Assembly (NCBI GenBank): GCA_009929855.1
Contig: RZZN01000033.1
Coordinates: forward strand, 1 to 44,482
Length of the DNA stretch: 44,482 nucleotides
Source: Gammaproteobacteria bacterium
GTDB taxonomy: Bacteria > Pseudomonadota > Gammaproteobacteria > Chromatiales > Chromatiaceae
Direction: 5' to 3'
In this document: piece by piece, positions 42,094-44,482 of the stretch
Numbering within the stretch: position 1 is the first letter of the stretch
Layout: each line of letters starts with the position of its first letter
Made by a program: the position numbers and the translations under genes
The notes under the pieces: generated by a model
Told to the model about the DNA's origin: nothing
Database searches by the model: none
The model's input: only the letters and a program-made list of their open reading frames with translations

Positions 42094-42735
42094 TCAGTGC
42101 TCGCCCTTGGTGCGCAAGAGTCCGGCCAGCCGGTTGCCCTGTTTCTGTGGACCACCCCGCGGGAAGAGGCGATGCAGTGCACGGTTGCTGCCCTGCTCGG
42201 TGCCCCAGACCTGGCTGAAATGGGTGATCATCTCACGCACCGTCGCCTGGATTCCGTGCCGGGCATAGTGCGCGCGCAGGAAGCGGAGGACCTCCCAGTG
42301 CTCGGCGCTCAGCGCCAGACCCTCGCGTGCCGCCTGGGCGCGGGCGAACGCCTCGGACCAGTCGGACGGGTCGACCAGATAGCCCTCGCTGTCGGTGAGT
42401 ATGGCGCGTCCCTCGACCATGAGCGTCTGAGTCGTCATGCCGGGGTAGGCATTGCTGCCGGCCGGAAACTCACCAGGCAGACCGCGCGAGTCATGCTCCG
42501 ACTGGGTGATGGACCAGAGCTCGATGGGGATCTCACCGGCGAGTCGTCCATCGTAACGCTCGATCCCCGCGACCAGCACCTTGCCGCTGGTTGGCGGCAG
42601 GTCGAAGCTGGCCATGCCCGCGCGGTCGGTGAGGACCGCCGGGGTCTCGGATCCGTCCCCATCGAGTTTGAGCACGACCGCGGTGCGCTTGAGTGGCTCG
42701 TGTGTGGCCTTCATTGAAACCTTGATGGCGATCAT
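42094..42735 (-). CDS. Cysteine-free DsrC/TusE-like protein with an N-terminal beta domain
   Basis: A 213-residue protein of two parts. Residues about 1-95 look like a small beta-sandwich (VVLKLDGDGSETPAVLTDRAGM and similar), possibly transthyretin-like; I do not recognise the family. Residues about 103-213 match the DsrC/TusE family: MVEGRAILTDSEGYLVDPSDW, LSAEHWEVLRFLRAHYARHG, TVREMITHF and NRALHRLFPRGGPQKQGNRLAGL (in parts). DsrC carries two C-terminal cysteines that transfer sulfur as a trisulfide. Here the inner one is N201 and the penultimate one is E212, and the whole protein contains no cysteine. It cannot carry sulfur in the DsrC manner, so a regulatory or decoy role is more likely. 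It is divergent from a LysR regulator. The ATG at 42735 has GGAG at 9-nt spacing. Confidence 0.85.
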   Translation of the reverse strand: MIAIKVSMKATHEPLKRTAVVLKLDGDGSETPAVLTDRAGMASFDLPPTSGKVLVAGIERYDGRLAGEIPIELWSITQSEHDSRGLPGEFPAGSNAYPGMTTQTLMVEGRAILTDSEGYLVDPSDWSEAFARAQAAREGLALSAEHWEVLRFLRAHYARHGIQATVREMITHFSQVWGTEQGSNRALHRLFPRGGPQKQGNRLAGLLRTKGEH

Positions 42736-42826
42736 GAGGATGTCTCCAGATCAGCGTGCATGTGACATGATCCCCACGCTAACTTGACTGATCAATAAAG
42801 ACAAACGAAATTTATCCCTATTTGAC

Positions 42827-42841
42827 ATCGATGTTATCGAT
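42827..42841. promoter_or_regulatory. Candidate LysR-type operator
   Basis: ATCGAT-GTT-ATCGAT is a perfect palindrome containing the T-N11-A pattern of LysR-family sites (TCGAT...ATCGA). It sits 11 bp before the LysR start codon in an unusually AT-rich divergent region (42775-42850). That placement suits autorepression. A second site controlling the DsrC-like gene is not obvious. Confidence 0.55.
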
Positions 42842-42852
42842 TTAAGCGAGAC

Positions 42853-43791
42853 ATGGATATCGAGCAAGTCAAGACCTTTCTGGCGATCGCGGCACATGGG
42901 AGCTTCCAAGAGGCGGCCAATCGGGTGCATGTCACCCAGTCGACCGTCAGCGCCCGCATCCAGGGCCTGGAGCAGTATCTCAACGCCCGGCTCTTCGTGC
43001 GCAACCGCTCCGGGGCGACCCTGACCGCGGCGGGCCGGCGGTTCCTCCGCCATGCCAAGACACTGGTGTTGACGCTGGAGCAGGCACGCCACGAGGTGGG
43101 TCTGCCCAGCCGTTTTCGCACCAGTCTCACGATCGGCGCCCGCATCGCGCTCTGGGATGGTCTGCTGCCGGTGTGGGCCGGGCGGATGCGCGCCCAGTCG
43201 CCCGAGGTGTCGCTGATCTGCGAGATCGGGTTCGAGGAGGACCTGATGCGTCGTGTCATCGAGGGCACACTGGATCTTGCCTTGATGTACACCCCGCAAC
43301 AGGGCGCCGGTTTGGTCGTTGAGCATCTCTTCGACGAGACCCTGATCCTGGTCACGCGCGATCCGCACTACGCCGAGCTGGACGACGGCTATGTCTATGT
43401 GAGTTGGGGTCCGACCTTTTACGCCCAGCACAGCCGGGTCTATCCCGCGCTCGAGCGTCCGGCTCAGATCGCCAACATCGGCTGGCTCGGACTGCAGCTG
43501 ATCCTCGCCAACGGCGGGGCCTGTTTCGTCCCGGAGCGTGTCGCCGCGCCCTATCTGCGCTCGGGCTGTCTGCACCCGGCGCCCAATGGCCCTCGTTTCA
43601 CCCTACCGGCCTACGCGGTCTACTCTCTCGAGAGCGAATCCCAGGTCCTGGAGACCGCGCTCGTGATCCTGCGCGCGCTGCTGCAGGAGAGCTCGCCCGG
43701 CACGGCAGCGCTCGCGGCGGCCTGTCCGGCGGGCGGATCGACCGATCCAGACGACTCGACCGAACCGGATGCGGTCGTTTCCCGAGCATGA
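42853..43791 (+). CDS. LysR-family transcriptional regulator
   Basis: A 312-residue LysR-type regulator. The N-terminal winged helix-turn-helix (1-60) contains FLAIAAHGSFQEAANRVHVT and QSTVSARIQGLEQYLNARLF. The effector domain (about 90-285) starts LTIGARIALWDGLLP and includes the recognisable LDLALMY strand. A 25-residue Asp/Ser/Ala-rich tail follows. It is divergent from the DsrC-like fusion gene, the usual arrangement for a LysR regulator and its target. It overlaps the next gene by 4 nt (ATGA at 43788-43791). The effector is not known. Confidence 0.93.
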   Translation: MDIEQVKTFLAIAAHGSFQEAANRVHVTQSTVSARIQGLEQYLNARLFVRNRSGATLTAAGRRFLRHAKTLVLTLEQARHEVGLPSRFRTSLTIGARIALWDGLLPVWAGRMRAQSPEVSLICEIGFEEDLMRRVIEGTLDLALMYTPQQGAGLVVEHLFDETLILVTRDPHYAELDDGYVYVSWGPTFYAQHSRVYPALERPAQIANIGWLGLQLILANGGACFVPERVAAPYLRSGCLHPAPNGPRFTLPAYAVYSLESESQVLETALVILRALLQESSPGTAALAAACPAGGSTDPDDSTEPDAVVSRA

Positions 43792-44243
43792 TCTACACCC
43801 CGCTGTTGATCCGACCGGGCTTCTCGCGACGCCTAGCTGGATTCGTCCTGCTCACGCATCTGCTCGCCGCGGCGGTCTCGCTGGCTTGGCTTGAGTGGTG
43901 GTCATGGCCGTTGCTCGCCGCCATCACGCTGAGCGGCCTCCATGCCTACCATGTCCATGTCTTGCGACGTGCACCCTGGTCCATTCGCGCGGTCTTCCGG
44001 GATGTCGACGGAACCTGGCGCGTCGCACTCGTGTCCGGGGCCGAGCACCCGGCACGCATCGATCCCGCCACCTTCGTCAGCCTGCCGTTGGTGGTCCTGA
44101 GACTCCGCTTGGGGCGCTGGCGCGTGTGCGCTCTACCACTCTTTGCCGATGCGCTCGACCCCGAGCAACTGCGCCGACTGCGACAGTGCTTGCGGATCGA
44201 GCACGACATCACCAACGACGCCAAGCCCGAGCCGACTCAGTGA
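43788..44243 (+). CDS. YgfX-like (CptA family) membrane protein
   Basis: A 151-residue protein with two closely spaced transmembrane helices (about 18-55) and a cytoplasmic C-terminal domain ending LPLFADALDPEQLRRLRQCL, which resembles the end of the YgfX/CptA family. In E. coli YgfX is an inner-membrane protein described as a toxin acting on the cytoskeleton and is paired with SdhE (YgfY). No sdhE is seen here. Instead the gene overlaps the LysR gene by 4 nt, so the two are co-translated. The family call is moderate; it could be another small two-helix membrane protein. Confidence 0.62.
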   Translation: MIYTPLLIRPGFSRRLAGFVLLTHLLAAAVSLAWLEWWSWPLLAAITLSGLHAYHVHVLRRAPWSIRAVFRDVDGTWRVALVSGAEHPARIDPATFVSLPLVVLRLRLGRWRVCALPLFADALDPEQLRRLRQCLRIEHDITNDAKPEPTQ

Positions 44244-44271: not shown

Positions 44272-44482
44272 GGAGTCCGGGCCTCCAGGCCCAAGGGAGT
44301 CGGGGCCTCCATGCCCCAAGGGAGTCGGGGCCTCCAGGCCCCGAGTGAGGATCTGCCCGCGCCATCAGTCCAGCTCCAGACCTGGTCCGCACGAGCGCCC
44401 GGACTCGTGATCGGCGCCGCGTCTGTCCTTCCTCGGGGCGAGGACGCCCCGACTCCCCTGGGGATGCGCCGACTCCCCTGGG
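44272..44482. repeat. Palindromic repeat array in both orientations, running off the window
   Basis: Forward units start at 44272, 44296 and 44321, followed by the 32-nt tail at 44343-44374 shared with the 29970 locus. An inverted unit at 44432-44456 is variant B, like the one at 13833. A further inverted partial unit lies at about 44461-44476, and the array seems to continue beyond 44482. The forward units begin 28 nt after the YgfX-like stop. Confidence 0.88.

Follow-up and report, generated by a model that had tools for sequence, protein, structure and literature searches.

Organization of the locus

The window, that is the whole stretch of 44,482 nucleotides that was analysed, belongs to a purple sulfur bacterium and carries near its end a gene for a DsrC-like fusion protein of 213 amino acids, which starts with ATG and is arranged divergently to a LysR-type regulator (Table 1; the gene coordinates include the stop codon). 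This open reading frame had been proposed on the same strand in an earlier examination of the DNA, referred to here as the sequence-only reading, and its position was confirmed. The protein, which contains no cysteine in its 213 residues, and its relatives are termed KGEH here, a name coined from the C-terminal residues. Behind the LysR gene, an open reading frame at 43404–44243 (+ strand) barely exceeds the cut-off of PF07254 (Cpta_toxin; 28.0 against 27.3 bits); its long 5' part, which overlaps the LysR gene, is probably non-coding. About three copies of a G+C-rich tandem repeat of 25 bases are situated at 44272–44349, close to the end of the contig at position 44482.

Table 1. Features of the KGEH locus in the window.
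Feature	Position	Strand	Basis
DsrC-like fusion gene (KGEH protein), 213 aa	42094..42735	-	ORF; Pfam and NCBIfam matches
N-terminal beta-sandwich, residues ~1-75, transthyretin/CnaB-like in the model, no Pfam match	42511..42735	-	AlphaFold, Foldseek (weak, E 0.024 and up), Pfam
Linker, residues ~76-101, lowest conservation	42433..42510	-	59% mean column identity; residues 81-88 with pLDDT <50
DsrC-fold domain, residues 102-213	42097..42432	-	Pfam, 1yx3 alignment, AlphaFold, Foldseek
C-terminal arm, residues 191-213, N201 and E212 at both cysteine positions	42097..42165	-	98.8% mean column identity
Two-part operator ATCG-N7-CGAT-N19-CGTTTG, between the divergent genes	42802..42841	-	Pattern recurrence; presumed LysR binding site
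LysR-type regulator, divergent	42853..43791	+	Pfam, NCBIfam; orthologue within 1.5 kb in 33 of 73 named fusion loci (from the best 80 of 360 relatives)

Domain architecture of the KGEH protein

Residues 107–208 match the Pfam family DsrC (PF04358) with 105.8 bits (cut-off 24.9), and the protein reaches 84.6 bits against the NCBIfam model TIGR03342 (cut-off 53.5) and an E-value of 9e-19 against DsrC of A. vinosum (1yx3). Judged by its sequence, it is thus a member of the DsrC family, far above chance. The score against the TusE equivalog model NF008562 (93.2 bits) lies below the cut-off of 191. An AlphaFold model calculated from a 74-row alignment (mean pLDDT 87.3, pTM 0.79) displays six strands at residues 2–73 and a DsrC domain starting at about residue 102, with low confidence at residues 81–88 of the linker and at the final three residues. 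In this model, residues ~102–213 adopt the DsrC fold: all seven Foldseek matches in the PDB with E-values up to 0.001 are DsrC-family chains, and A. vinosum DsrC is matched with an E-value of 1.8e-8 and a TM-score of 0.86 on the target chain. Structure prediction, which had been suggested as a check, accordingly agrees with the DsrC-like part of the sequence-only reading, and the extra N-terminal domain claimed there is also borne out by the strands at residues 2–73, the adjoining linker and N-domain matches in 48 of the 194 genomes of the window's family (profile E-value up to 0.001).

The N-terminal domain is covered by no Pfam family, and a PDB search with its profile gave no match (best E-value 0.98). 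Foldseek returned weak transthyretin-like and CnaB-like matches to it, with E-values of 0.024 and up and a target TM-score of up to 0.65. A mobile module was considered and rejected, as all 51 N-domain matches in the 194 genomes are matches to the fused protein too; one of these, in G121, begins at a contig end. The 248 genomes of the class contain four full matches to the N-terminal domain, one of them that of the window, and all four are fusions; six weak matches (L200–L205) were found in addition. Three of the latter (L202, L203 and L205) lie in longer proteins that are secreted by appearance, and L204 lies inside a very long frame. At L201:1462-1704 (+ strand), a free-standing protein of about 80 residues in another family resembles the N-terminal domain (profile E-value 2.5e-6). 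Since five of the weak matches are free-standing, secreted-looking or long-frame proteins, their link to the N-terminal domain seems to be one of fold only.

Relatives and distribution

Scanning one genome per species (84,980 species) yielded 378 places with the pattern, 360 of which encode a relative. The best 80 of these 360, referred to as the named loci, stem mostly from Chromatiaceae and other Gammaproteobacteria (for example Thiogranum, Thiohalobacter and Cocleimonas). In the order of the window's genome, 74 of 210 genomes carry a KGEH protein at a full-profile E-value of up to 1.9e-36, namely 48 fusions and 26 proteins lacking the N-terminal domain, some of the 26 being fragments; the 74 include the fragments in G073, G121, G142, G168 and G178, and G200, with a tail fragment of 65 residues (E-value 1.8e-31), was scored negative. 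In the 248 genomes of the class, the four full-length matches, the window's own included, are accompanied by ten further matches to the DsrC part (E-values up to 2.6e-53).

Conservation was assessed in alignment A3, which comprises 68 fusions (window included) and six standalone proteins and covers 73 of the 80 named loci; the near-duplicates L084, L085, L087, L088 and L089, the fragment L148, and L150 are omitted. The alignments A1 (29 rows) and A2 (27 rows) combine the window's protein with those of 28 and 26, respectively, of 36 loci, near-duplicates being omitted. L038, the start codon of which is unclear, is absent from both and is represented in A3 by its named copy L132. In a tree of 33 DsrC domains all 27 KGEH rows are grouped (support 80/85), and their nearest relative from the window's genome is a cysteine-free paralogue beside dsrA (98/94, with a long-branch warning). 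Since the fusions do not form one clade in this tree, the N-terminal domain has probably undergone repeated loss or gain.

Several relatives show peculiarities. L131 and L139, from a MAG named Desulfobulbaceae Ww282, are KGEH fusions adjoining a LysR gene, which reflects either transfer or a binning error. In L173 and L174 (G142 and G168, one genus) the first ~118 KGEH codons are gone and the arm is intact; the open frame extends in antisense direction into the LysR gene, the start of which seems to be lost together with the operator region. In G105, a second DsrC-like open reading frame (L054:9405-9872, + strand) directly follows the fusion and ends in the tail EQGHRLAGLPRGKS, which has no cysteine. 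A. vinosum (G124) also carries a KGEH gene (G124:C1:28183-28821), which, judging by its position, we take to be very likely Alvin_0028. The available part of one report gives an approximately two-fold increase of Alvin_0028 on pyrite (PMC11267869).

Conservation of the C-terminal arm

The KGEH arm aligns without gaps to that of A. vinosum DsrC and displays Asn201 at the position of the inner cysteine (Cys100 in A. vinosum). The local alignment with 1yx3 stops at residue 210, and ungapped extension sets GEH on GCV, which places Glu212 on the penultimate cysteine. Among the best 80 of 360 relatives, as represented in A3, both residues are invariant (74 of 74 rows each), confirming the replacement of both DsrC cysteines by Asn and Glu that had been read from the window, and from residue 184 on no cysteine is present in any of the 74 rows, so that neither a frameshift nor a cysteine-bearing tail in relatives, which would have spoken against that reading, was found. 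The further statement that cysteine is missing throughout holds for the window's protein and does not extend to the family, as 29 of the 74 relatives in the same alignment of the best 80 of 360 contain one or more elsewhere in the protein. Mean column identity in these rows amounts to 98.8% in the arm (residues 191–213), 71.4% in the DsrC core and 68.1% in the N-terminal domain. In a standalone sub-group the arm deviates slightly, to IRKTKGEH or IRRTKGEH.

At the invariant arm positions, two to six different codons apiece are used in 72 rows, corresponding to the full set of synonymous codons or to the full set minus one. This free synonymous variation indicates that the protein sequence is held fast, and not the DNA. 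The loss of the cysteines is thus maintained under strong purifying selection.

Neighbouring genes

Clustering of the open reading frames around 136 loci (80 named and 56 unnamed, the sets overlapping) and the window revealed NnrS, HPP, CBS, Rrf2, MoeA, ThiS/MoaD, NarG, NarH, NarI and NarJ as recurrent neighbours by Pfam and NCBIfam, and further NarK, NirD, ModC, a molybdopterin oxidoreductase and others. As nitrogen-oxide genes, narGHJI, nasA, nirD, narK, NnrS and HPP were counted with reference proteins within 6 kb. Of the 73 fusion loci among the best 80 of 360 relatives, which include several copies per species, near-identical MAGs and the contig-end fragment L148, 30 have such a gene in this range and 43, some of them cut by a contig end, have none; all six named Thiocapsa fusion loci lack any of the listed genes within 6 kb. 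The most frequent neighbour of these 73 loci within 6 kb is LysR (34 loci, 33 of them within 1.5 kb), followed by HPP and CBS (17 each), NnrS (14), Rrf2 (six), MoeA (five), MoaD (four), narG, NasA, NarK and NirD (two each) and ModC (one). For HPP, these 17 of 73 loci compare with about 0.2–0.4 expected by arithmetic for a gene that is present once or twice per genome of 4–5 Mb.

A nitrogen-oxide gene lies within 6 kb of 18 of the 27 loci lacking the N-terminal domain (L150 as well as L173 and L174 with their lost 5' part included), and nine have none. Here narI is found at ten loci, narG, narH and narJ at eight each, LysR at seven, HPP at five and NasA at four. In ten of the 27 cases narI is located no more than 1.5 kb upstream of the KGEH gene, and the gene order narK-narG-narH-narJ-narI-KGEH recurs. 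At the window locus, LysR is the only one of these neighbours and no nitrogen-oxide gene is seen up to the contig end; the window's genome gives no match for narG or NasA and carries NnrS and HPP on other contigs. In the KGEH-bearing genomes G049, G123 and G189, none of narG, NasA, NnrS and HPP was found.

Co-occurrence was counted across all 210 genomes of the order, which are related to each other, so that all p-values are too small. Genomes with and without KGEH protein carry narG in 27/74 and 12/136 cases, NnrS in 65/74 and 93/136 and HPP in 55/74 and 74/136. For NasA, counted with a stricter set, the difference is not significant (21/74 versus 30/136, p 0.32), and NasA co-occurrence was rejected as an explanation. 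If the fusions are taken alone, HPP displays a significant excess (41/48 versus 88/162) and narG does not (11/48 versus 28/162, p 0.40). Physical linkage is therefore the stronger argument.

NnrS belongs to regulons responsive to NO and nitrite, as described in the accessible part of PMC1274295, and a plant HPP protein is presented as a nitrite transporter candidate in the consulted section of PMC4137279. By analogy, nitrite carriage by the bacterial HPP proteins is assumed here. For A. vinosum, the excerpt available of PMC3368242 mentions no obvious genes for nitrate reduction, yet norB and NarXL are present, and handling of nitrite or NO therefore fits better than nitrate reduction. A description of the fusion or of its link to nitrogen oxides was not found in the literature covered, a weak negative since most subscription journals lie outside this coverage.

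LysR regulator and operator

The LysR orthologues beside the fusions are 59–81% identical to that of the window. In many loci the DNA between LysR and KGEH genes, or between LysR and HPP genes where HPP heads the operon, contains the palindrome ATCG-N7-CGAT, followed 19 bases later by CGTTTG (CGTTTT in Thiocystis and Thiorhodococcus). Fifty loci, some with a misjudged LysR start, served to derive the pattern. The copy listed in Table 1 is the sole match in the window with up to one mismatch, compared with an average of 0.05 in shuffles. In 47 hand-chosen genomes, 39 of them KGEH-bearing, the exact pattern recurs with 38 matches in 28 genomes, and the reversed pattern, a control that does not keep dinucleotide content, gives 0 matches in the 47. 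Twenty of the 38 matches, each in a different genome, have a KGEH gene at a distance of up to 2 kb, and for 16 of them this distance does not exceed 400 bases. The proximity is partly circular because the pattern stems from KGEH loci. Nineteen of the 39 KGEH-bearing genomes, A. vinosum included, have no exact copy beside their KGEH gene.

HPP is no more than 600 bases away from six of the 38 matches, and two of these six are upstream of an HPP gene that has no adjacent KGEH gene. One of the two, in G137, which has no KGEH match, is flanked by HPP and a LysR orthologue (68% identical). Sixteen of the 38 matches have no KGEH or HPP gene in their vicinity; five of them (in G147, G151, G102, G071 and G165) adjoin a gene resembling an NtrC-type response regulator. 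For the one at L236, which was scanned, ntrC is the best match, below the model cut-off; the other four calls were made by eye, that at L215 being the least certain. The response-regulator gene may also belong to the LysR regulon, and the remaining matches may be chance or additional targets. These five operator copies (L215, L217, L232, L233 and L236) occur in narG-bearing genomes, with narG on the same contig at a distance of 14 to 32 kb. For the gene that flanks some operator copies on their opposite side, Mrp ATPase was considered and dropped, as there is no family match. The LysR protein presumably binds this operator and regulates directly.

Relation to sulfur genes

Of the 210 genomes of the order, 186 give a match to dsrA. 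Among the 74 that carry a KGEH gene, 71 do so; the exceptions, at an E-value of 1e-50, are G040 (72% complete), G072 (70%) and G051 (90%). Since so many genomes of the order possess dsrA, the survey of co-occurrence with dsr genes that had been suggested for the fusion is uninformative as regards dsrA. In six genomes with both genes on the same contig (G023, G132, G185, G105, G124 and G082), the KGEH gene is separated from dsrA by at least 0.9 Mb, and in the window's genome the two genes are on different contigs. In the latter genome, siroheme-domain matches are confined to DsrA and the adjacent protein, presumably DsrB. G051 carries a fusion and displays NirB as its sole siroheme match. Siroheme enzymes are, however, common and occur in 11 of 14 control genomes.

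The genome of the window encodes a second cysteine-free DsrC paralogue (L002, G000:C180:19216-19521), and its gene is some 3 kb away from dsrA (C180:15118-16329). Judging from this location, the paralogue fits the idea of a competitor of DsrC better than the window gene does.

Proposed function

Proteins above the TIGR03342 cut-off are named sulfur relay protein, and genome papers build sulfur models on such copies. Because the arm is kept, the cysteines are absent and nitrogen-oxide neighbours are frequent, this label is probably wrong for the KGEH family. DsrC inserts its arm into partner proteins, and it docks on a siroheme reductase. As the most strictly kept part of the KGEH protein is an arm the chemistry of which is gone, the simplest reading is docking without transfer. 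A non-transferring docking protein of the DsrC type, which acts in nitrite, nitrate and NO physiology under LysR control, is given about an even chance of being correct. The KGEH protein would then be a cysteine-free DsrC paralogue that has departed from sulfur relay. The divergent LysR-type regulator would control its gene via an operator of the T-N11-A type and would also control the gene of the HPP membrane protein and, in some genomes, a gene for a sigma-54 type response regulator. DsrC fold and rigid arm could dock on a partner that is open to canonical DsrC-type arms, where Asn and Glu in place of the cysteines would let the arm occupy or stabilise the site without sulfur transfer, and the N-terminal beta-sandwich may serve as an optional binding or anchoring module.

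As the docking partner, a siroheme reductase (DsrAB or NirB) is ranked first, since DsrC docks on one and since the window's genome and G051 show the matches described above; with two genomes only and siroheme enzymes being common, this is a guess. The position in nar operons speaks for nitrate reductase as the second candidate. A more specific form of the proposal, which appears decidedly improbable, holds that the protein is a nitrosation-safe dummy DsrC that is induced by nitrite or NO through LysR and blocks siroheme reductases, which would be DsrAB in purple sulfur bacteria and NirB elsewhere. It would shield the siroheme or hold the DsrC site while the thiols of real DsrC are at risk and, if true, would link the nitrogen and sulfur cycles.

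The sequence-only reading had offered a sensor or competitor of loaded DsrC in a possible sulfur oxidiser. In such a role, the arm with its Glu would imitate DsrC in persulfidated or sulfonated form, either at DsrAB or at DsrEFH, and thereby tune sulfur oxidation. The groundwork of that reading stands, that is the DsrC fold retained in the model, the arm lacking cysteines, the N-terminal domain and the dsrA-bearing genome, and the prevalence of dsrA among KGEH-bearing genomes as well as the lack of a siroheme-domain match beyond DsrA and its neighbour in the window's genome are in line with it. The role tied to loaded DsrC, however, seems improbable, because dsrA is far off, the recurrent neighbours are nitrogen-oxide genes and LysR, and G051 has the fusion and no dsrA match. 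Moreover, binding of DsrC to DsrEFH dropped strongly upon exchange of Cys111 to Ser according to the portion available of PMC3397948, so that a protein with Glu at this position is unlikely to bind DsrEFH. A helper in assembly or activity of molybdenum nitrate reductases, comparable to NarJ, would account for the ten standalone genes directly downstream of narI, for nasA near four of the 27 standalone loci, for moeA and moaD near five and four of the 73 fusion loci (from the best 80 of 360) and for the higher share of narG in KGEH-bearing genomes of the order; with narG and NasA missing from the window's genome and from G123, and no significant narG excess in fusion genomes, it is rated fairly unlikely.

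A. vinosum DsrC binds DNA. Together with the tight pairing with LysR in 33 of the 73 fusion loci (from the best 80 of 360) and the shared operator, this could point to a co-regulator whose DsrC-fold domain acts with LysR on the operator, a very doubtful reading given that conservation peaks in the arm and not in the helices and that the ten standalone copies behind narI have no adjacent LysR. Loss of both cysteines might also be expected of a decaying or frameshifted dsrC copy. This is hardly conceivable and was rejected: the gene is intact in dozens of species, Asn201 and Glu212 are invariant and the arm is the most constrained part of the protein.

Should the docking reading be right, a widespread protein of the DsrC type acts in nitrogen-oxide physiology without sulfur carriage. 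The main additions made here are the nitrogen-oxide link and the operator. The conserved arm makes the KGEH partner testable, and A. vinosum, a laboratory strain used in sulfur biochemistry, has the gene. The label also matters for genome interpretation: in Thiohalobacter thiocyanaticus, extra dsrC/tusE copies were proposed to replace the missing DsrEFH, as stated in the text available of PMC6504805, and the strain concerned carries a cysteine-free fusion (L142).

Comparison with known systems

DsrC of A. vinosum shares with the KGEH protein the fold, as far as the model goes, and the gapless arm. In contrast, the KGEH protein has Asn and Glu for the arm cysteines (74 of 74 rows each, from the best 80 of 360), carries the added N-terminal domain and is encoded outside the dsr operon, on another contig in the window's genome and at the distances given above in the six genomes that have both genes on the same contig. 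Compared with the TusE/DsrC/DsvC family (TIGR03342, PF04358), it scores above both cut-offs and lacks both sulfur-carrying cysteines, and it misses the TusE equivalog cut-off. The paralogue L002 has the absence of cysteine and a KQG motif in common with it; unlike the KGEH protein, L002 ends in the tail KQGTKIAGLPEVHRKGGY, has no N-terminal domain and is encoded near dsrA. The N-terminal domain may resemble transthyretin-like and CnaB domains (for example 2gpz, 5aq0, 8bdw) as a predicted beta-sandwich, with the weak matches mentioned above and no Pfam family.

The name RspA was reportedly given to cysteine-less DsrC homologues by Venceslau and co-authors in a review from 2014, and these are said to have a regulatory function in sulfur metabolism. 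In the literature covered, no text applying this name to DsrC relatives was found; on the definition as reported, the KGEH protein is likewise a DsrC homologue without arm cysteines. Partial loss of the cysteines is already known, since viral DsrC-like proteins in which the second C-terminal cysteine is missing are described in the part available of PMC4164917.
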